Positions 807 to 10,153 of a stretch of DNA of 10,153 bases are shown piece by piece. Every line of letters begins with the position of its first letter. Position 1 is the first letter of the stretch. The position numbers were made by a program, and so were the translations under genes. Where the stretch lies: NCBI GenBank assembly GCA_028689195.1, contig JAQTWR010000069.1, forward strand, positions 1 through 10,153. Reading direction: 5' to 3'. This DNA comes from Anaerolineales bacterium. Its GTDB lineage: Bacteria; Chloroflexota; Anaerolineae; Anaerolineales; Villigracilaceae. Under the pieces are notes generated by a model, which saw only the letters and a list, made by a program, of their open reading frames with translations, ran no database searches and had not been told where the DNA came from.

Positions 807-3041
807 ATGAAACCCGAATTAAAACGTTATTCAACGACCGTTGGTACGCGCGTCCACACTTTTGAAACTGGCACGCTGGCGGCTCAGGCTGGCGGCGCAG
901 TCACATTCAGCGCGGGCGAGTCTACGGTTTTTGCCGCCGCTACCATGGGCGGCGTGCGCGATGGCATTGACTTCTTTCCGCTTTCGGTGGATTTTGAAGA
1001 GCGCATGTACGCAGGAGGCAAAATCCCCGGATCGTTCTTCCGCCGCGAAGGACGCGCCAACACCGACGCGATTCTTGTCGCGCGCCTCACTGACCGCCCG
1101 CTGCGCCCGCTGTTCCAGCATGGAATGCGAAACGAAGTGCAGGTCATTATGTACAGTTTCTCTGCCGACGGCGAAAATCCGCTGGATATTCTTGCAATCA
1201 ACGCGGCTTCTGCCGCCATTATGATTTCGGATATTCCTTGGGCGGGACCTGTCGGCGCGGTGCGCGTGGGACGCGTCAATGGCGAATTCGTCATTAACCC
1301 GACCTTCGCAGAGATGGACGCTTCTGACCTCGACCTGAGACTCGCGGGAACAAAAGACGCGATCCTCATGGTGGAATGCGGCGCGAGCGAAATCCCCGAA
1401 GACGTGATGGTTGCCGCGCTCGAATTGGGACATAAATCCATTCAGCCGATTATTGAATTACAGATTCAAATGCAAGCGGAAATTGGCAAGCCCAAACGCG
1501 AAGCCTTCATCGAAACCGCAAACGAAGAGTTGCAAAAGAAAGTTTTCGATGCGGTCAACCAGCGCATGAACGAGTTGCTCGATAAACCGTTGAGCAAAGG
1601 CGAGTTCTATGGCGGCATGGACGAATTGCAAGCCGCGATGATTGCCGAATTCTGCGTTGAAGGCGACGCCGCCGCGCCTTCGCAAAAAGACGTGAAATCC
1701 GCGTTTAGCGAAGCGGAACATAAAATTGTGCGTGAAAGAATCCTTGGCATGGGCAAGCGCCCCGATGGACGCGCGCCTACCGACATCCGCCCGATTTGGT
1801 GCGAGGTGGGACTTTCTCCGCGCGCGCACGGCACAGGACTTTTCACCCGCGGCGAAACGCAGGTTTTATCCTTTGCAACGCTCGGCACGTTGGGCGAAGC
1901 GCAGGAACTCGACAACCTTTCGCCGAACAAAGAAAAGCGTTATATGCATCATTACAGCTTCCCGCCTTTCTCGACGGGCGAGGTGAAAATGTTGCGCGGA
2001 CAAAGTCGCCGCGAAGTGGGGCATGGCGCATTGGCTGAACGCGCGCTCGAACCCGTCATCCCTGCGGCGGAATCTTTTCCGTATACGATTCGCGTGGTGT
2101 CTGAGGCGCTGTCTTCAAACGGCTCGACTTCAATGGGTTCTGTCTGCGGCTCGACCCTCGCGCTGATGGATGCGGGCGTGCCGATCAAAGCGCCGGTTTC
2201 CGGCGTGGCAATGGGACTCATCACTGACGAGACGGGACGCTATCAAATTCTCACCGACATTCAAGGCACTGAAGATCATCTCGGCGATATGGATTTCAAA
2301 GTGGCTGGAACCGCCGCAGGAATCACCGCTTTGCAAATGGATATTAAAATCAGCGGTTTGAGCGCGCAGATGATGAAAGAAGCGCTGGCGCAGGCTCACA
2401 CCGCGCGCATGTCCATCATGGAAAAAATGCTCGAGGCAATTCCAGAATCGCGCGCAGATTTGAAACCTCACGCGCCGCGCATCATTACCGTCAGAATCCC
2501 GATTGATAAAATCGGCGCGTTGATCGGTCCCGGCGGAAAGAATATCCGCGCCTTGCAGGAAGAGACGCATACCAAGATTGACATTCAAGAAGACGGCACG
2601 GTTTACATCGCTTCGACGGATGGCGAAGGCGCGAAGATCGCGCAGGAGCGCGTCGAGGGTTTGAGCGAATCGGTGGTGGTCGGAAATATTTATACGGGCA
2701 AGGTGGTTCGCATCGAAGCGTTTGGCGCGTTTGTGAATTTACTCCCCGGCATGGACGGGCTTGTGCATATCTCGCAATTGGCGAGCGAGCGCGTGAACTC
2801 TGTCGAAGACGTTTGCGCGATGGGCGACGAATTGACTGTTATGGTCACGGACGTCGATCCGCAAGGCAAAATCCGCTTGTCGCGCCAAGCTGTGCTGGAA
2901 GGTTGGTCGGCTGAAGAAGCGCGCGAGAAGGATAAGGGCGGTTCGCGCGGCGGCAACGGCGGCGGACGCGGTGGAGATCGCGGCGGACGCGGCGGCGATA
3001 GGGGCGGGCGCAACGGCGGAGATCGCGGCGGACGTAGATAG
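807..3041 (+). CDS. pnp: Polyribonucleotide nucleotidyltransferase (PNPase)
   Basis: This 744-residue enzyme degrades RNA 3' to 5' with phosphate, releasing nucleoside diphosphates, and can add tails in reverse; it works as a cytoplasmic trimer, often with an RNA helicase and RNase E or Y. Domains in order are the first RNase PH core (about 10-215, with FFRREGR at 77-83), an all-alpha linker domain (about 235-305), and the second catalytic RNase PH core (about 320-540). The second core has the SNGSTSMGSVCGS phosphate site near 437-449 and metal/catalytic residues D490, D496 and K498, matching E. coli D486, D492 and K494. A KH domain (about 558-616, GPGG at 574-577) and an S1 domain (about 624-693) follow. 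Residues 711-744 form a Gly/Arg/Asp-rich tail. The ATG at 807 has AGGAG at 792-796; an in-frame GTG at 783 would place that site inside the gene. Confidence 0.97.
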   Translation: MKPELKRYSTTVGTRVHTFETGTLAAQAGGAVTFSAGESTVFAAATMGGVRDGIDFFPLSVDFEERMYAGGKIPGSFFRREGRANTDAILVARLTDRPLRPLFQHGMRNEVQVIMYSFSADGENPLDILAINAASAAIMISDIPWAGPVGAVRVGRVNGEFVINPTFAEMDASDLDLRLAGTKDAILMVECGASEIPEDVMVAALELGHKSIQPIIELQIQMQAEIGKPKREAFIETANEELQKKVFDAVNQRMNELLDKPLSKGEFYGGMDELQAAMIAEFCVEGDAAAPSQKDVKSAFSEAEHKIVRERILGMGKRPDGRAPTDIRPIWCEVGLSPRAHGTGLFTRGETQVLSFATLGTLGEAQELDNLSPNKEKRYMHHYSFPPFSTGEVKMLRGQSRREVGHGALAERALEPVIPAAESFPYTIRVVSEALSSNGSTSMGSVCGSTLALMDAGVPIKAPVSGVAMGLITDETGRYQILTDIQGTEDHLGDMDFKVAGTAAGITALQMDIKISGLSAQMMKEALAQAHTARMSIMEKMLEAIPESRADLKPHAPRIITVRIPIDKIGALIGPGGKNIRALQEETHTKIDIQEDGTVYIASTDGEGAKIAQERVEGLSESVVVGNIYTGKVVRIEAFGAFVNLLPGMDGLVHISQLASERVNSVEDVCAMGDELTVMVTDVDPQGKIRLSRQAVLEGWSAEEAREKDKGGSRGGNGGGRGGDRGGRGGDRGGRNGGDRGGRR

Positions 3042-3070: not shown

Positions 3071-3110
3071 AAAAAAGCGGGCAGAGTGAAAACTCTGTCC
3101 GCTTTTTTTT
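3071..3110. terminator. Bidirectional terminator between pnp and the convergent lyase gene
   Basis: AGCGGGCAGAGT (3076-3087) pairs with ACTCTGTCCGCT (3092-3103) over 12 bp, with one G-T pair and a GAAA loop. It has an A6 run on the left (3071-3076) and T8 on the right (3103-3110), so it should terminate transcription from both directions. It lies 29 bases after the pnp stop and 21 bases beyond the stop of the - strand gene. Confidence 0.88.
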
Positions 3111-3131: not shown

Positions 3132-4544
<1,413 letters not shown>

Positions 4545-4569
4545 TTAAATCTCCTTATTGACTGATGAA

Positions 4570-5052
4570 TTATTCCAACGGCAATGCCGTTGTGGTTTTT
4601 ATCTCGTTTAACACCAAACTGGTGTGGATGCGGGCAATGCCGGGAATTGGAGTCAACCAATCCACTACAAAGCGCTCCAAATCCTTACGGTTGCGAAGAA
4701 CTACTTTTAGCAAATAATCATATTCGCCTGTGATGTGATGGCATTCCAGCACCTCGGGAATTTCCTGAGTGAGATTGCGGAATTTTTCCACCTGCTCGAC
4801 CTGATGCATCTGCAAACCGATGTGGATAAAACAGAGCAGGTCGTATCCCGTTTTTTCTCGATCCACGACGGCGGCGTATCTGTGAATGTAGCCTTGTTTT
4901 TCCAGACGTTTTACGCGGGCGTGAGCGGCGGGAGGCGATAAATTAATTTGACGCGCCAATTCTGTATTGCTCATTTTTCCGTCAGATTGCAAGGCGCGCA
5001 GGGCGGCTTTGTCCACATCATCGAGCACATAAACTTGAGAGGTTTTTATCAT
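4570..5052 (-). CDS. Lrp/AsnC family transcriptional regulator
   Basis: The 160-residue protein has the usual Lrp layout: an N-terminal helix-turn-helix at about 11-60 (LDDVDKAALRALQSDGKMSN then TELARQINLSPPAAHARVKR), a hinge strand (GYIHRYAAVVD), and a C-terminal RAM ligand-binding domain at about 72-150 with the family motif ITGEYDYLLKV (107-117). Such proteins form dimers and octamers, bind amino acids, and often control an adjacent metabolic gene and themselves. The neighbour 25 bp downstream is an aromatic amino acid lyase, so tyrosine or another aromatic amino acid is a reasonable ligand; that is inference. The start at 5052 has AGGAC 8 bases upstream on the - strand. It could equally be a global Lrp, but the operon position suggests a local regulator. 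Confidence 0.92.
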   Translation of the reverse strand: MIKTSQVYVLDDVDKAALRALQSDGKMSNTELARQINLSPPAAHARVKRLEKQGYIHRYAAVVDREKTGYDLLCFIHIGLQMHQVEQVEKFRNLTQEIPEVLECHHITGEYDYLLKVVLRNRKDLERFVVDWLTPIPGIARIHTSLVLNEIKTTTALPLE

Positions 5053-5163: not shown

Positions 5164-5775
5164 TTAAACGGAATAAATCAATATGGCGATTTTTATTACA
5201 AATACATGAGCGCATACATAAATAATTGCCCATAAAGGATAACGGTTGGCAGAAGCCATATCTATTGTTTGATAAATTGGTTCGATTGTCGCAACTATAA
5301 CTATGCAGATCCAGGTAAGGTGTTCAAAAGCCAAATCCTTGAATATTGTTTTGACAATGAGTAATAAAACTGTGACGGGAAGGAGATGAAAAACAATCTC
5401 TACAAGAAATCCTATCGCTGGATAAAACAATAACGATTGTGGAAATAATATATTCATATCAGGCAGGAGTTTCACTCGTAAATCCACCAGAGCCATGATG
5501 ATTCCCAATAAGATTGCCAAACCAGCATAGCGAACCTGCCATTTTAGATTTTGCGCTTCATAAATGGCGAACCAGTTTTTAGAAATTAAAATGGCTGGCA
5601 AGATAAAGCCGAGAATTATTACAACTGGGAACGCTGTCAATGGATTTATTCTGCCAAGAAATCGCGCGAAAACAAATCTATCAGTAAAATACAACGTTCC
5701 CACGAATCCCAGTATCAATATCGAAATACCAAAGTAGATAAGAAATTGCAAATTGATGTTTTTAATTGTTGTCAT
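5164..5775 (-). CDS. Integral membrane protein of unknown function
   Basis: This encodes a 203-residue, very hydrophobic protein with about six predicted membrane helices (roughly 10-30, 46-65, 83-98, 116-142, 152-170 and 181-201). I do not recognise the family. Polar residues inside or near the helices, such as E126, H130, E165 and H190, recall the spacing of acidic/His pairs in CPBP-type intramembrane proteases, but the diagnostic EExxxR motif is absent, so I do not assign that. The gene is visibly more AT-rich than tpl, pnp or the MFS gene and uses many ATA, TTA and AAT codons, which may point to horizontal acquisition. It starts 44 bp after the PPOX-like gene and has only a weak ribosome binding site. 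It ends the three-gene - strand unit, with no clear terminator before lrp. Confidence 0.7.
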   Translation of the reverse strand: MTTIKNINLQFLIYFGISILILGFVGTLYFTDRFVFARFLGRINPLTAFPVVIILGFILPAILISKNWFAIYEAQNLKWQVRYAGLAILLGIIMALVDLRVKLLPDMNILFPQSLLFYPAIGFLVEIVFHLLPVTVLLLIVKTIFKDLAFEHLTWICIVIVATIEPIYQTIDMASANRYPLWAIIYVCAHVFVIKIAILIYSV

Positions 5776-5819: not shown

Positions 5820-6335
5820 TTAATTGTCTCTGCTGTTTGATAACGCGCTCCACGTGCCGCGTGTCATTTCGCCAATGAGCACAGGCTCCATCCGCGAGAA
5901 TTTTATCTCGCGCACTTTGCTCATGTTTTTCCACAAGATTGCGTGACCTTTTGTAAAACTTACTTTCCTTACCCGCCGTCGCAGCAATGCAATTTCTATG
6001 TCCGTTGCTGCTCGAACTTCCCCGGCAATCCCATACAAGCGGATTGCTGGAGGGTCAACGAAACGTCCACGAATTAGTGATTTCAACCAAAACCACGGAC
6101 TACTATTTACCGCCAGCACGCAGACTTGTTTGTTCGTTTCGAAATTATGGGGCAGTTGACTTGGATACTCTTCGAAATACATGCCTTGTCCCGCATCGCC
6201 TAAAATCAGGGAGCCGATTGGTGTGACGTGAGGTTCCCCATGTTCATTGACCGTCGCAATTGCGTAATGAAACGATGACCGAAAAGACTGCTTGAAGAGC
6301 CGTTTGATTTTGTCCCAATTTTCATCGAGTTGCAT
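5820..6335 (-). CDS. Pyridoxamine 5'-phosphate oxidase-like (split-barrel flavin-binding) protein
   Basis: This 171-residue protein has the split-barrel signature HYAIATVNEHGEPHVTPIGS near residues 23-42, followed by YFEEYPSQLPHNFETNKQVC and a strand GIAGEVRAA. That is the order of the FMN-binding barrel in the PPOX/general stress protein superfamily. Members bind FMN, F420 or heme and reduce or sense small molecules, so no specific reaction can be given. The C-terminal part, rich in Arg and Lys (KVREIKFSRMEPVLIGEM), completes the barrel. I choose the ATG at 6335 because AAAGGA lies 8 bases upstream; a GTG at 6368 would add 11 residues without a comparable site. It sits in the middle of the - strand unit controlled from the 6842-6887 palindrome, suggesting a role in a stress or xenobiotic response. 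Confidence 0.75.
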   Translation of the reverse strand: MQLDENWDKIKRLFKQSFRSSFHYAIATVNEHGEPHVTPIGSLILGDAGQGMYFEEYPSQLPHNFETNKQVCVLAVNSSPWFWLKSLIRGRFVDPPAIRLYGIAGEVRAATDIEIALLRRRVRKVSFTKGHAILWKNMSKVREIKFSRMEPVLIGEMTRGTWSALSNSRDN

Positions 6336-6375
6336 CTTTAGAATCCTTTCTGCTGTTTTGACAACCACCGCGGTT

Positions 6376-6789
6376 TTAATTCCAAATGAATCTCTTATCT
6401 TTCCAACTTAGCCCCATGATTACGAGACCGACGAGTATGTTATAGAAAGTCACAAACTTTCCGAAGAGTTCGCCTGTCGAGAAATCAAAAAACAGCCCGG
6501 TGTTCAAATCATATAACAGGGCATACAACCCAAAAAACACCATTGCCGAGCCGAGCGCGATTCCGAACAAGAGGGCTTTTGGGTTTTTCAACAGGGTGAA
6601 AGTTCCTGTCATAAAAGCCAGCAGAATCAGCCACAGGTCTGCGATTTGAAACGAAAGGAAATAGTTTCGGAACCCTGGAACACTTTCCTCGACTGGGAAC
6701 CTGCCAGACCACACCAAATTCCATTGAAGCAGGATGCCTGCGCCCGTGAGAAAACTCAACACACAAACAAAGGTTTGCGATTTTTTCAC
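6376..6789 (-). CDS. Four-helix membrane protein of unknown function
   Basis: This is a 137-residue protein with four predicted membrane helices (about 7-27, 46-66, 72-93 and 110-128) and a soluble loop at 28-45 between the first two. I do not recognise the family. The start codon is GTG at 6789, supported by a strong Shine-Dalgarno AAGGAAGG (complement of 6796-6803) six bases before it. It is the first gene of the leftward unit, with a predicted leader of about 47 nt from the promoter inside the 46-bp palindrome. The next gene starts 40 bp after its stop. Being the first gene under the shared operator suggests it belongs to the same response as the exporter, but no function follows from that. 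Confidence 0.7.
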   Translation of the reverse strand: MKKSQTFVCVLSFLTGAGILLQWNLVWSGRFPVEESVPGFRNYFLSFQIADLWLILLAFMTGTFTLLKNPKALLFGIALGSAMVFFGLYALLYDLNTGLFFDFSTGELFGKFVTFYNILVGLVIMGLSWKDKRFIWN

Positions 6790-6841: not shown

Positions 6842-6887
6842 TATACTAACACTAATATTGACTATAGTCAATATTAGTGTTAGTATA
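6842..6887. promoter_or_regulatory. Perfect 46-bp palindrome containing two mirror-image divergent promoters
   Basis: Every base pair from 6842 to 6887 is symmetric about the 6864/6865 centre (two 23-bp arms, no loop). On the + strand TTGACT (6858-6863) and TAGTAT (6881-6886) are 17 bp apart; on the - strand the identical pair is TTGACT (6871-6866) and TAGTAT (6848-6843), also 17 bp apart. The rightward promoter serves tetR-MFS-Rph-like, the leftward one the three - strand genes. The -35 boxes are back to back and the promoters share 14 bp, so one polymerase should exclude the other. The palindrome is the obvious binding site for the adjacent TetR. Each arm also repeats ACTAA (6845-6849 and 6851-6855), leaving room for two dimers. 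Confidence 0.85.
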
Positions 6888-6903
6888 TTTATAGGAGATA
6901 AAC

Positions 6904-7497
6904 ATGCCTGAACCCCTCACCCGCACTCAAAAACGCCAAAAAGAGACCAAAGAACGGATTTTCCGTGTAGCGATGGAAATGTTTGCAAAGAACAGCTTTG
7001 AAAACACCACCGTTTCCGACATTACAGAAGCCGCCGACATTGGCAAAGGCACGTTTTTCACGTATTTCCCCACCAAGGAAGCGGTCTTCAAACAACTTGG
7101 GGAAATCACAATGGAAATGATGTCTGCCACCGCAGAGGAAGGTATCAAGGCGAAACAGCCAATTCCCCTTGTCTTGAAAAACACCCTCACCGCTTCGGCT
7201 GAATGGCACGAAGCCAATAAACCCATCACTCAACAGATGGTGCGACTAAATGTTTCCATGGAACCCAATACTCCCAACAAAAAAAGGTTTTTGGAATTGC
7301 TGACAAACTTGATTCGCATTGGGCAGGAGAATGGCGAATTAAACAATGAAATTAATGTTCAAGATGCCGCGCTTGTCTTGGCGGCGATCTATTTCACGGC
7401 TGTTTCGGTTTGGGCGCTGACCGAAAACGTGTCGCTGCGGGAAAGACTCGAATCTGCTGTTGATATTGTTTTGAAAGGCTTGTCGGCGCGTACATGA
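6904..7497 (+). CDS. TetR family transcriptional repressor
   Basis: The 197-residue protein has a TetR N-terminal DNA-binding domain (about 14-62): IFRVAMEMFAKNSFENTTVS leads into the recognition helix region ITEAADIGKGTFFTYFPTKEAV, with the typical GTFFTYFPTKE ending. The C-terminal half is an all-helical ligand-binding and dimerisation domain that cannot be matched to a specific inducer. It lies right beside the 46-bp palindrome and overlaps the MFS exporter gene by 4 bp (ATGA), so it very probably represses itself and the exporter until an effector binds. AGGAGA at 6893-6898 fixes the start. The predicted transcription start (about 6892-6894) falls at this Shine-Dalgarno sequence, giving a leader of only about 11 nt. 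Confidence 0.93.
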   Translation: MPEPLTRTQKRQKETKERIFRVAMEMFAKNSFENTTVSDITEAADIGKGTFFTYFPTKEAVFKQLGEITMEMMSATAEEGIKAKQPIPLVLKNTLTASAEWHEANKPITQQMVRLNVSMEPNTPNKKRFLELLTNLIRIGQENGELNNEINVQDAALVLAAIYFTAVSVWALTENVSLRERLESAVDIVLKGLSART

Positions 7498-8870
7498 ATC
7501 AAAAATGGATTGGCTTTAGCGGCCTCCTGGTGGGGATGAGCGCCTCAGCCTTGATGCAAACCTTGGTCGCCACCTCCCTGCCTGTCATCGAACGCGACCT
7601 GGGTGGGATGCAGTTATACAGTTGGGTCTTTGGCGGATATATGCTCGCCTCCACCATCACCATTCCGCTGTTCGCGCGGCTGGCGGATATCCTCGGACGC
7701 CGCACGCTGTATGTGGCTGGACTGCTTATCTTTCTCCTCGGCTCTGCGCTGGTAGGACTTTCACAAAGCATGGAACAGTTGGTTGCCTTCCGCGTGGTGC
7801 AGGGCATCGGCGCGGGAGCAGTCGCGCCTGCGGCGTTGGCATCCATCGGGGATTTGTTTGGCGAAAATGAACGCGGCAAAATTTTCGGCATTATCGGTGC
7901 AGTGCAGGCGCTGGCTAATTTGATTGGACCTCCGCTCGGCGGTTGGGTCACGGATACATTCTCCTGGCGTTGGGGCTTTTATCTTGTCCTGCCGCTGGGC
8001 GCGTTGGCAATGACATTGGCGCTGCTTGGACTTCCAAATAAAACTCAGCCAACCAATACCCTTCAAATTGACTGGCTCGGCGCGCTCCTCATTGGAACTG
8101 GTTTATGTTTGGGACTTTTAGGATTTCAGTGGATTGGCTTGGGCGCGAATCATCTTGTCTACGGAATTGCATTTTGTCTCGGCGCAATTGCGCTTCTTGG
8201 ACTCGCCGTGAGTTGGGAACAAAAACAATCTGCTCCCGTCATTCCGATAACCTTGTTAAGTCACCCGTTGTTATGGAGAGCGGTTCTGGGAACACTTCTG
8301 CTGGGATTTGTTACCAATGGCGCAGTCGCTTACTTCCCACTTTATCTGGAAAAAATCCATGGATTGACTGCAACCGCCACTGGATTATCTCTTCTGCCGA
8401 TGTTGCTGATGGCGGGCATCGCGTCGGGCGTGGGTGGCGGACTGGCGAGTCGCTGGCAACGTCAGACTCAAGCAATCGCATGGATACTTGTCATCGCAGG
8501 TTTTGCCTTGTTGACTATGACAATGACTAGCAGTATTGCATGGATGGCAGCCCTCATCGGTGCGGGCATGGGATTACTGCTTCCCGTGTATCTGCAATCG
8601 GCGCAAAGCGCAGGCGGAGAATCACATCTTGCCACTGCCAGCGGATTAATCCAAATGGCGCGCAACATGGGCGGAGCCATGGGCATTCCTTTGCTCGGTA
8701 TCTGGCTCGCAGTCGGTGAAGTGGACACAACTATGTTTGCATCCATCTTCGCAACGCTGGCAGTCATTGGCGTACTCGGTTTTCTATTGGGATTTGCATC
8801 TCCCTCACCCTATCCCTCTCCCACAGGGAGAGGGGACTCCCTTCCCCTGTGGGGGAAGGGTCGGGGATGA
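7494..8870 (+). CDS. MFS drug exporter, DHA2 (EmrB/QacA-like) family
   Basis: This 458-residue multi-pass protein probably exports drugs or other toxic compounds by proton antiport across the inner membrane. Family motifs seen are an N-terminal LVATSLPVIERDLGG (24-38), motif A LADILGRR (63-70), motif B RVVQGIGAGAVAPA (100-113) and motif C with GPPLGG (145-150). About 14 hydrophobic segments are visible, as expected for DHA2. Its start overlaps the tetR stop (ATGA), implying translational coupling and regulation by the repressor. From about residue 436 the sequence (SPSPYPSPTGRGDSLPLWGK) is encoded by the GC-rich palindromic repeat, and the TGA stop is inside that repeat, so the native C-terminus was probably replaced or extended by about 23 residues after the last helix. 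Substrate is unknown. Confidence 0.92.
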   Translation: MNQKWIGFSGLLVGMSASALMQTLVATSLPVIERDLGGMQLYSWVFGGYMLASTITIPLFARLADILGRRTLYVAGLLIFLLGSALVGLSQSMEQLVAFRVVQGIGAGAVAPAALASIGDLFGENERGKIFGIIGAVQALANLIGPPLGGWVTDTFSWRWGFYLVLPLGALAMTLALLGLPNKTQPTNTLQIDWLGALLIGTGLCLGLLGFQWIGLGANHLVYGIAFCLGAIALLGLAVSWEQKQSAPVIPITLLSHPLLWRAVLGTLLLGFVTNGAVAYFPLYLEKIHGLTATATGLSLLPMLLMAGIASGVGGGLASRWQRQTQAIAWILVIAGFALLTMTMTSSIAWMAALIGAGMGLLLPVYLQSAQSAGGESHLATASGLIQMARNMGGAMGIPLLGIWLAVGEVDTTMFASIFATLAVIGVLGFLLGFASPSPYPSPTGRGDSLPLWGKGRG

Positions 8871-8891: not shown

Positions 8892-10153
8892 ATGACAATC
8901 GCTTGGTTTCATGAATTGGATTTAGGAGATATTTCTTTAGTCGGTGGAAAGGGCGCCAATTTGGGGAAGATGGCGCGCGCGGGGCTTCCCGTCCCGCCTG
9001 GGTTCTGCGTCACAACCGACGCGTACAAGCAGTTCATTAACGAGATGGATTTATGGACTGAGATGGAACGTCTGTTGGCAACTCTGCCCGCGCGTGAGGC
9101 TGGTGAGAAAATCCGTCAGCGGATTGAAAATGCCCGAATGCCAGAATCAATTTCAAAGTCCATAAAAGAAGCGTATGCAAAACTTAACGGCGGATTCGCG
9201 CCCGTCGCCGTCCGTTCATCCGCCACTGCTGAAGACCTTGCCGACGCCAGTTTTGCAGGTCAGCAGGAAAGTTATCTCGGCATTCGCGGAAATGAAAAAT
9301 TGACTCTGCACGTCCAGCGCTGTTGGGCATCGTTGTGGACGGAGCGCGCCATCACCTACCGCGAGCGGAATCGTTTTCCGCATCAGCAGGTCAGTCTTTC
9401 GGTGGTGGTGCAGGAGATGGTGGCGTCGGATGTGGCGGGCGTTTTGTTCACGGTCAATCCCGTGACGAATCAAAAAGATGAAATGCTCATCAACGCCGCG
9501 TATGGATTGGGCGAAAGCGTGGTCTCTGGGCGCGTCACGCCCGACACGTTCAAAATTGCGCGCAAGCGTTTCCGCGTGCTGGAGCAAATGCGCGGCACGA
9601 AAGCCACGCGCATTGACATGACCGACGGTGGCACGCTGGAATCCAACACTGCGTCAACGGAACGCGAGCGGCTGAGTTTGGATGATTCGGCTTTGCGCCG
9701 TCTCTTCTCGTTGGGCGAGCAGGTTGAAAAATATTACGGCGCGCCGCAGGATATTGAATGGGCGATTGCGAAGAACCAACTTTATCTTTTGCAAACCCGC
9801 CCCGTCACATCGTTGACCGTCAACACACCGAAGCCTCAAACCCTGAACCGCACACAGCACGCCATTGTTGATGATATTTTGGAACATTATCCCGAGCCGC
9901 CTTACCCGTTGGATTATTTTGCCGTCACCGATAGTTACCAGCAACTGATGAATGCGCTTCTTGACTACGGTGTGGAGTTGCCTCCGTCCGATGAAATCAT
10001 CCTGCTCGATAAAGATGGCATTCCCAACATCGCTCCGCCCAACCCGCGCTTGAAGTTTCGTTTCTTCTTTTCTTTTGCGTATCTACTCAAGAAATTAAAG
10101 TCAGACCCAAATATCTGGATCAATCAGCAACACGCGGAATTTACTTCCGAGTT
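8892..10153 (+). CDS. PEP synthase/rifampin phosphotransferase-like enzyme, N-terminal part (runs off the window)
   Basis: An uninterrupted frame from ATG 8892 reaches the window edge (420 codons). Residues about 1-306 are a PEP/pyruvate dikinase-type ATP-grasp domain with VGGKGANLGKMARAGLPVPP (17-36), VAVRSSATAEDLADASFAGQ (105-124), QEMVASDVAGVLFTVNP (174-190), AAYGLGESVVSGRVTPDTF (202-220) and PQDIEW...LLQTRP (285-304). K20, R108, E289, Q301 and R303 fit the ATP-site residues of rifampin phosphotransferases. After residue 310 comes a different, Pro/aromatic-rich segment (HYPEPPYPLDYFAVTDSYQQ) and not the swivelling His domain directly, which resembles the Rph layout (ATP domain, drug-binding domain, His domain) more than PEP synthase. 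The His domain lies outside the window, so the catalytic His is unseen. GAAGG (8881-8885) is the ribosome binding site. The 21-bp gap from the MFS stop suggests one operon with tetR and the exporter. Confidence 0.85.
   Translation, partial: MTIAWFHELDLGDISLVGGKGANLGKMARAGLPVPPGFCVTTDAYKQFINEMDLWTEMERLLATLPAREAGEKIRQRIENARMPESISKSIKEAYAKLNGGFAPVAVRSSATAEDLADASFAGQQESYLGIRGNEKLTLHVQRCWASLWTERAITYRERNRFPHQQVSLSVVVQEMVASDVAGVLFTVNPVTNQKDEMLINAAYGLGESVVSGRVTPDTFKIARKRFRVLEQMRGTKATRIDMTDGGTLESNTASTERERLSLDDSALRRLFSLGEQVEKYYGAPQDIEWAIAKNQLYLLQTRPVTSLTVNTPKPQTLNRTQHAIVDDILEHYPEPPYPLDYFAVTDSYQQLMNALLDYGVELPPSDEIILLDKDGIPNIAPPNPRLKFRFFFSFAYLLKKLKSDPNIWINQQHAEFTSE

Follow-up and report, generated by a model that had tools for sequence, protein, structure and literature searches.

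The region between the two divergent operons of the window (the whole stretch of DNA analysed here, a 10,153-base contig of the 2.85-Mb, 82% complete assembly G000) probably carries a divergent promoter-operator that TetR autoregulates: a single palindromic operator would give both -35 boxes, and each promoter would have its own mirror-image -10. As the sequence-only reading had reported, positions 6842-6887 form a perfect, loop-free palindrome of 2 x 23 bp, written TATACTAACACTAATATTGACTA/TAGTCAATATTAGTGTTAGTATA and centred on 6864/6865, in which 23 of 23 pairs are symmetric; the symmetry ends there, arm positions 24-26 being AAA versus TTT. The longest perfect arm was 10 bp in 300 simulated windows of the same composition (Markov-1) and 14 bp in 20,000 simulated 114-bp intergenic regions, versus 23 bp observed. 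The 46-bp palindrome is real and far beyond chance. A search with its central 22-mer, allowing up to 3 mismatches, returned a single site in its own assembly, which rules out a dispersed repeat or a mobile element. The same element is found in L002, a locus of a separate MAG (G020), with 3 bases changed, 2 central and 1 at the edge, and because it recurs there an assembly artefact is unlikely.

The length of the symmetry, which had been called unusual, is less exceptional than claimed. Among 56 other TetR loci, surveyed strand-aware up to 350 bp upstream (the comparison set of 54 described below plus L025 and L026), two carry a perfect palindrome without a loop, 36 bp long at L028 and 32 bp long at L048, which shows that other TetR genes can have long symmetry too. 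At L028 (positions 1363-1462, genome G009), upstream of another TetR gene of the genus, two perfect 36-bp palindromes were observed with centres 64 bp apart, and a promoter-like TTGACA and an A/T-rich stretch lie between them. The special feature of the window is that both promoters are carried by the symmetry, rather than the length of the palindrome.

The promoter scan found TTGACT-17-TAGTAT on each strand, with 9 of 12 consensus matches and a TG ahead of the -10, and the two cores (6858-6886 and 6843-6871) overlap by 14 bp, which bears out the earlier description. Over the region, 3 promoter-like sites were returned versus 1.7 expected from shuffles, an excess too small for the hexamers to count for much by themselves; the -10 TAGTAT matches 4 of 6 positions of the sigma-70 consensus, which is assumed for Chloroflexota. 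By consensus, both operons are faced by promoter-like sequences. The predicted transcription starts lie near 6893 and 6836, about 57 bp apart, and the rightward one would give a leader of just ~11 nt, which counts against the promoter-operator model. The equality proposed for the two promoters is exact in the window but not in L002, where TTGACC-17-TAGTAT is paired with TTGACT-17-TAGTAT. When the consensus scan was applied to the palindrome at the four ortholog loci (the window, L002, L003 and L004), a right-facing promoter was found at three and a left-facing one at two. The rightward unit of L004, ATGACT-17-TAGTAT, falls under the scan threshold, and this locus has an additional left-facing match further out than the palindrome.

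The features of the region are collected in Table 1. The order tetR, MFS gene, PEP-synthase-like gene is identical at all four ortholog loci, and the claim that this operon and the one of the membrane protein and the PPOX protein are joined by the operator is supported, the operator itself being read from sequence comparison. The designation "Rph-like" for the third rightward gene stands as far as a PEP synthase/Rph superfamily match goes, but its full-length ortholog (L065, 839 aa) scores 413.7 bits versus an Rph cut-off of 999 (NF041857) and is below the PEP-synthase cut-offs as well. In G020 (L065 2514-6656), the 839-aa PEP-synthase-like protein is followed by a 536-aa protein with a mobile domain as its sole Pfam match, an ATP-binding domain match in Pfam being absent from the latter; the pair is possibly a split enzyme.

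Table 1. Features of the divergent promoter-operator region and of the flanking genes in the window
Feature	Position	Strand	Evidence
46-bp perfect loop-free palindrome with two mirror-image promoters	6842..6887	.	43/46 bases kept in L002
Probable TetR operator core TTGACTATAGTCAA, with TGAC-N4-GTCA at 6859-6870	6858..6871	.	10/30 versus 0/54 TetR loci
-35 box TTGACT of putative rightward (tetR) promoter; would double as operator left half	6858..6863	+	promoter scan
Extended -10 TGT-TAGTAT of putative rightward promoter	6878..6886	+	TGTTASTNT equidistant from GTC in window, L002, L003, L004, L006 and L008
-35 box TTGACT of putative leftward promoter; would double as operator right half	6866..6871	-	promoter scan
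Extended -10 TGT-TAGTAT of putative leftward promoter (mirror copy)	6843..6851	-	minus-strand module in window and L002 only
TetR-family regulator, 197 aa	6904..7497	+	PF00440, 50 bits versus cut-off 24
MFS exporter, EmrB/DHA2 kind	7494..8870	+	PF07690, E 2.8e-54; TIGR00711, 192 bits, below cut-off 230
PEP-synthase/Rph-like enzyme, truncated by window end	8892..10151	+	PF01326
137-aa hydrophobic, probably membrane protein; leftward gene 1	6376..6789	-	no family
PPOX-class flavin-binding protein; leftward gene 2	5820..6368	-	PF01243, 30.6 bits versus cut-off 28.1
203-aa hydrophobic protein; probable leftward gene 3	5164..5775	-	ORF only; no Pfam match

Neither Pfam nor NCBIfam matched the 137-aa protein at E 0.001; just DUF4271 came up, at E 0.045. 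Its gene is also present in L002 and is broken there: in G020 it stops near residue 107-110, at contig ends (L002 1-130 and L059 1-260), in what looks like an insertion-sequence boundary, one end having a transposase-start-like reading frame. The left arm of the palindrome has thus been kept in G020 beside a damaged gene, which counts against the promoter-operator model. A CAAX-protease-like gene was observed ahead of the PPOX gene in G020. The divergent genes of L003 and L004 differ from that of the window; their products are a short protein, matched below threshold as carboxypeptidase-regulatory-like, and a protein of the TPR/zinc-ribbon kind. Elsewhere in the window, the minus strand at 3132-5052 holds a tyrosine phenol-lyase (764 bits, above the cut-off of 721), with an Lrp/AsnC-type regulator before it. 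At 3071-3108, where genes converge, a near-perfect inverted repeat of 17 bp with runs of A and T resembles a bidirectional terminator, and 2926-3034 encodes a polynucleotide phosphorylase C-terminus with a Gly/Arg-rich repeat. Copies of a CCCTCTCCC...GGGAGAGG repeat lie at 655-677 and 8808-8865, and one of them overlaps the MFS gene at its 3' end.

As judged from its distribution, the central TGAC-N4-GTCA of the palindrome is very probably the operator of the adjacent TetR. This core was searched strand-aware within 200 bp upstream of the TetR protein match, the slices beginning at the protein or domain match and possibly lying some tens of bases within the gene. The inverted repeat, which overlaps the promoters, is conserved with its regulator: it is exact in 10 of the 30 loci that carry this TetR or a relative (the window, counted here, with L002-L020, L025, L026 and L096-L103), and in 0 of 54 other TetR loci, made up of 24 weak matches of the same protein search and 30 TetR_N domain-search loci, of which 2 reach 7/8. 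The exact carriers are the window, L002, L003, L006, L007, L008, L009, L010, L026 and L096; L004, L025 and L102 match 7/8 at best, and a core-like site, 7/8 matches included, is absent from 17 of the 30, a point against the model. The earlier proposal of one operator covering both promoters holds in that a TetR operator would lie over back-to-back promoters, but the core spans ~12-14 bp (6858-6871) and not 46. Named exact carriers include Pseudoglutamicibacter and Propioniciclava, which we take to be Actinomycetota, Halalkalibacter and Salsuginibacillus, presumably Bacillota, and one Acidobacteriota MAG. The recognition stretch ADIGKGTFFTYF is common to the window, L006, L007 and L008, and that of L009 is related. 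Upstream of tetR in L007 and L009, two TGAC-N4-GTCA-like cores were observed, 16-17 bp apart, and not one.

The predicted model of the TetR protein (pLDDT 91) has TetR-family FadR structures as its top PDB matches, and among solved structures Thermus thermophilus FadR is the nearest to it, with 27% identity. The consensus site of T. thermophilus FadR, TTGGACTTAGTCCAA, for which PMC5597230 reports binding by gel shift, closely resembles the window core TTGACTATAGTCAA. Allowing up to 2 mismatches, TTGACTATAGTCAA gave 11 sites in G000 versus 3 for the reversed control; the corresponding sites and controls were 8/6 in G012, 4/3 in G020 and 10/11 in G022. In the same search for a regulon elsewhere, patterns longer than TTGACTATAGTCAA returned the local site only.

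Scanning the genome collection with the TetR protein yielded 19 loci, of which L002 (89%), L004 (77%) and L003 (61%) are close; these three come from MAGs named Chloroflexi or Anaerolineales. Whole-genome searches (101 relatives, 400 genomes of the order and 57 of the genus) recovered the same three, in G020, G012 and G022, so that a TetR ortholog is present in 4 of the 57 genus genomes. In the 396 class genomes, 26 had a match at E 1e-20 or better, none above 37% identity except G000 and G012. Further relatives with 70-89% identity are listed on metagenome contigs; nothing was found in viral contigs, nor in plasmids at E 1e-15. From the identities of 61, 77 and 89%, L003 would have diverged first and L004 next, ahead of the split between L002 and the window; tree support around the window is uneven, from 0.26 to 1.0, and the L003 protein itself lies outside that tree.

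Between the window and L002, 43 of 46 palindrome bases are kept (21/23 in the left arm and 22/23 in the right), versus 36/68 in the intergenic flanks (25/52 + 11/16), gaps in L002 being scored as changes, and the 7-base spacers are kept 7/7 on each side. In L003 and L004, the outer segment of the right arm is kept at 7/8 and 8/8 positions, and that of the left arm at 3/8 and 5/8; with 12 and 14 of 23 pairs symmetric, both loci are quasi-palindromes. The alignment of relatives proposed by the sequence-only reading thus recovers the element in L002, but the left mirror half is missing in two of the three close orthologs. The outcome that reading had named as refuting it, homologous loci lacking the palindrome, therefore holds in part, and the symmetry is lineage-specific.

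The rightward unit, TGAC-N4-GTC-N8-TGTTASTNT, is found with equal spacing in the window, L002, L003, L004, L006 and L008; the 18 loci that match, out of 103 collected, represent these six places or copies that overlap them. Five of the ten exact core carriers (L007, L009, L010, L026 and L096) are without the TGTTASTNT part, which also weighs against the model. In the actinobacterial L006 and L008, PEP-synthase-like genes lie downstream, with an MFS gene between in L008. In the 57 genus genomes the rightward pattern was hit 6 times and nowhere outside the four ortholog loci (G000 and G020 on both strands, G012 and G022 on one), versus 1 hit for the reversed control. In the 396 class and 400 phylum genomes, two draws that overlap, the listed hits are the G000 and G012 loci and 4 other distinct ones, with none in G020 or G022, and the reversed control gave 4 and 5 hits.

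The minus-strand module pattern of the leftward copy is absent from L003, L004, L006 and L008; the mirror half occurs at two loci only, the window and L002, which share the divergent gene of the 137-aa protein, and perfect symmetry in the window only. On this comparison, the rightward unit before tetR is the old form, and the leftward mirror half looks like a later addition in the line that led to the window and L002. The symmetry thus looks derived, a second promoter of mirror-image form having brought the divergent operon under the control of the repressor that already governed the rightward one.

In the switch that we infer, with its TetR binding, transcription starts, induction and exclusion, the operator palindrome TTGAC-N4-GTCAA would supply a -35 box on either strand, and the two extended -10s would be mirror images. 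As the operator half TTGACT equals a -35 box, a -10 at a distance of seventeen bases would be enough to complete a promoter on the far side. TetR sitting on the middle would hide both -35 boxes and keep off both operons, tetR-MFS-PEP-synthase-like on the right and membrane protein-PPOX-membrane protein on the left. Binding of a ligand would release TetR, and RNA polymerase could then load in either direction, one at a time for steric reasons, as is deduced from the RNA polymerase footprint size. Mutually exclusive firing of the two promoters is sterically plausible. In E. coli, the five bidirectional promoters tested in PMC12825309 had a basal activity too low for competition, which emerged once one direction was raised or activated. 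Since basal activity gave no competition there, exclusion would matter here only if the derepressed promoters are strong.

It is rather unlikely that the whole 46 bp forms an extended operator for several TetR dimers, its symmetry serving binding alone and the leftward promoter being incidental. Pairs of TetR-family dimers can bind overlapping palindromes, as reported for DarR (PMC10636190), and such an arrangement would fit the 32-36 bp palindromes at 2/56 other TetR loci, the paired cores of L007 and L009, the AGTG at positions 12-15 on both sides in L003 and the intact spacers of the window and L002. The spacer, however, varies among the remaining loci that have the rightward unit (TTTTCAG, AAATTAT, AGTTTCT, TGTTTCT), and the outer left arm is not conserved in L003 and L004, although the part of TetR expected to read DNA is near-identical. 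The outer parts of the palindrome look instead like -10 regions that persist only at loci in need of a promoter on that side.

That the palindrome is a repeat with no regulatory role, or a structural element such as a hairpin, cruciform or terminator, appears very improbable, even though the DNA can be folded into a hairpin of 21 bp whose loop has 4 nt (-18.2 kcal/mol, z -9.6): the element is single-copy in its own assembly, and the core and the rightward unit are kept in L003 and L004, where the symmetry is incomplete. A terminator or structured RNA was rejected, there being no Rfam match at gathering score within the window and the palindrome lying in the wrong place, between gene starts and upstream of both predicted starts. 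We give still less credit to a -10-centred bidirectional promoter of the kind described by Warman et al., with the central TATA as a shared -10. The plus strand does hold TTTATA-17-TATAGT, which scores 9/12, but this has no partner on the opposite strand; the central TATA is CGTA in L002 and is altered in L003 and L004 too, and the central promoter was rejected because the centre is not conserved. In addition, starts predicted ~57 bp apart fall outside the 7-25 bp definition given in PMC10268837.

Under the preferred reading, a -35-centred pair of promoters on one TetR operator, the mirror half could have arisen in one step, a replication template switch copying the right arm with its promoter onto the left through the self-complementary operator; we regard this origin as tentative and rather doubtful. 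It is favoured by a symmetry that covers the 7-base spacer, which is variable among other carriers, and that reaches just one base further than the -10, and by the two outgroup orthologs (L003 and L004) being only quasi-palindromic and the window perfect. In E. coli quasi-palindromes, template switching makes imperfect inverted repeats perfect or more perfect (PMC7202029), and PMC8794818 describes perfect stems produced in a single event. The spacers kept 7/7 on each side between the window and L002 point to some constraint or selection, which counts against a one-step copy, and the evidence comes from two loci only, too few to decide. If it were true, a perfect palindrome would at once have put the neighbouring gene under the same repressor, and operators whose half-site is a -35 box would seed promoter mirroring as a general capture route for divergent genes.

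Whatever its origin, the locus would be a clean natural case of the same promoter sequence on opposite strands under one repressor, and because the promoters are identical, polymerase competition could be measured with promoter strength removed as a confounder. It also suggests a route by which a TetR captures a neighbour, as the operator already has a -35 box per strand and only the -10 is missing. The pattern TGAC-N4-GTC-N8-TGTTASTNT is a likely operator of a TetR lineage that, at the loci covered here, is accompanied in two phyla by PEP-synthase-like enzymes and in most cases by an exporter. A keyword search of open-licence PMC articles found no paper on a TetR with mirrored divergent promoters.

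In Tn10 tet and acrR/acrAB, likewise, a TetR-family repressor acts by overlapping divergent promoters, with an exporter among its targets; neither Tn10 nor acr is known to have promoters that mirror each other. Unlike these, in the window a single operator would yield the -35 box of each promoter, and one promoter is the exact mirror image of the other. Tn10 is described with two operators, tetO1 and tetO2 (PMC11686294), and PMC12825309 places acrR/acrAB among the bidirectional promoters that share a -10. The bidirectional promoters of Warman and Grainger also rely on symmetry for two-way RNA polymerase loading, one direction excluding the other, but they share a -10, with starts 7-25 bp apart, whereas the window would share the -35 region, with starts predicted ~57 bp apart, and by prediction lies outside that class. 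The T. thermophilus FadR site TTRNACYNRGTNYAA is a similar palindrome that likewise overlaps core promoters; it is an odd 15-mer with other target genes, whereas the window core TTGACTATAGTCAA is an even 14-bp palindrome with N4 between GAC and GTC. In dimer-of-dimers operators of the QacR and DarR type, more than one TetR-family dimer can occupy overlapping palindromes; in the window, the outer arms track the promoters and not TetR. TetR autoregulation and overlapping divergent promoters are thus known already; what is new is the -35-centred mirror pair.
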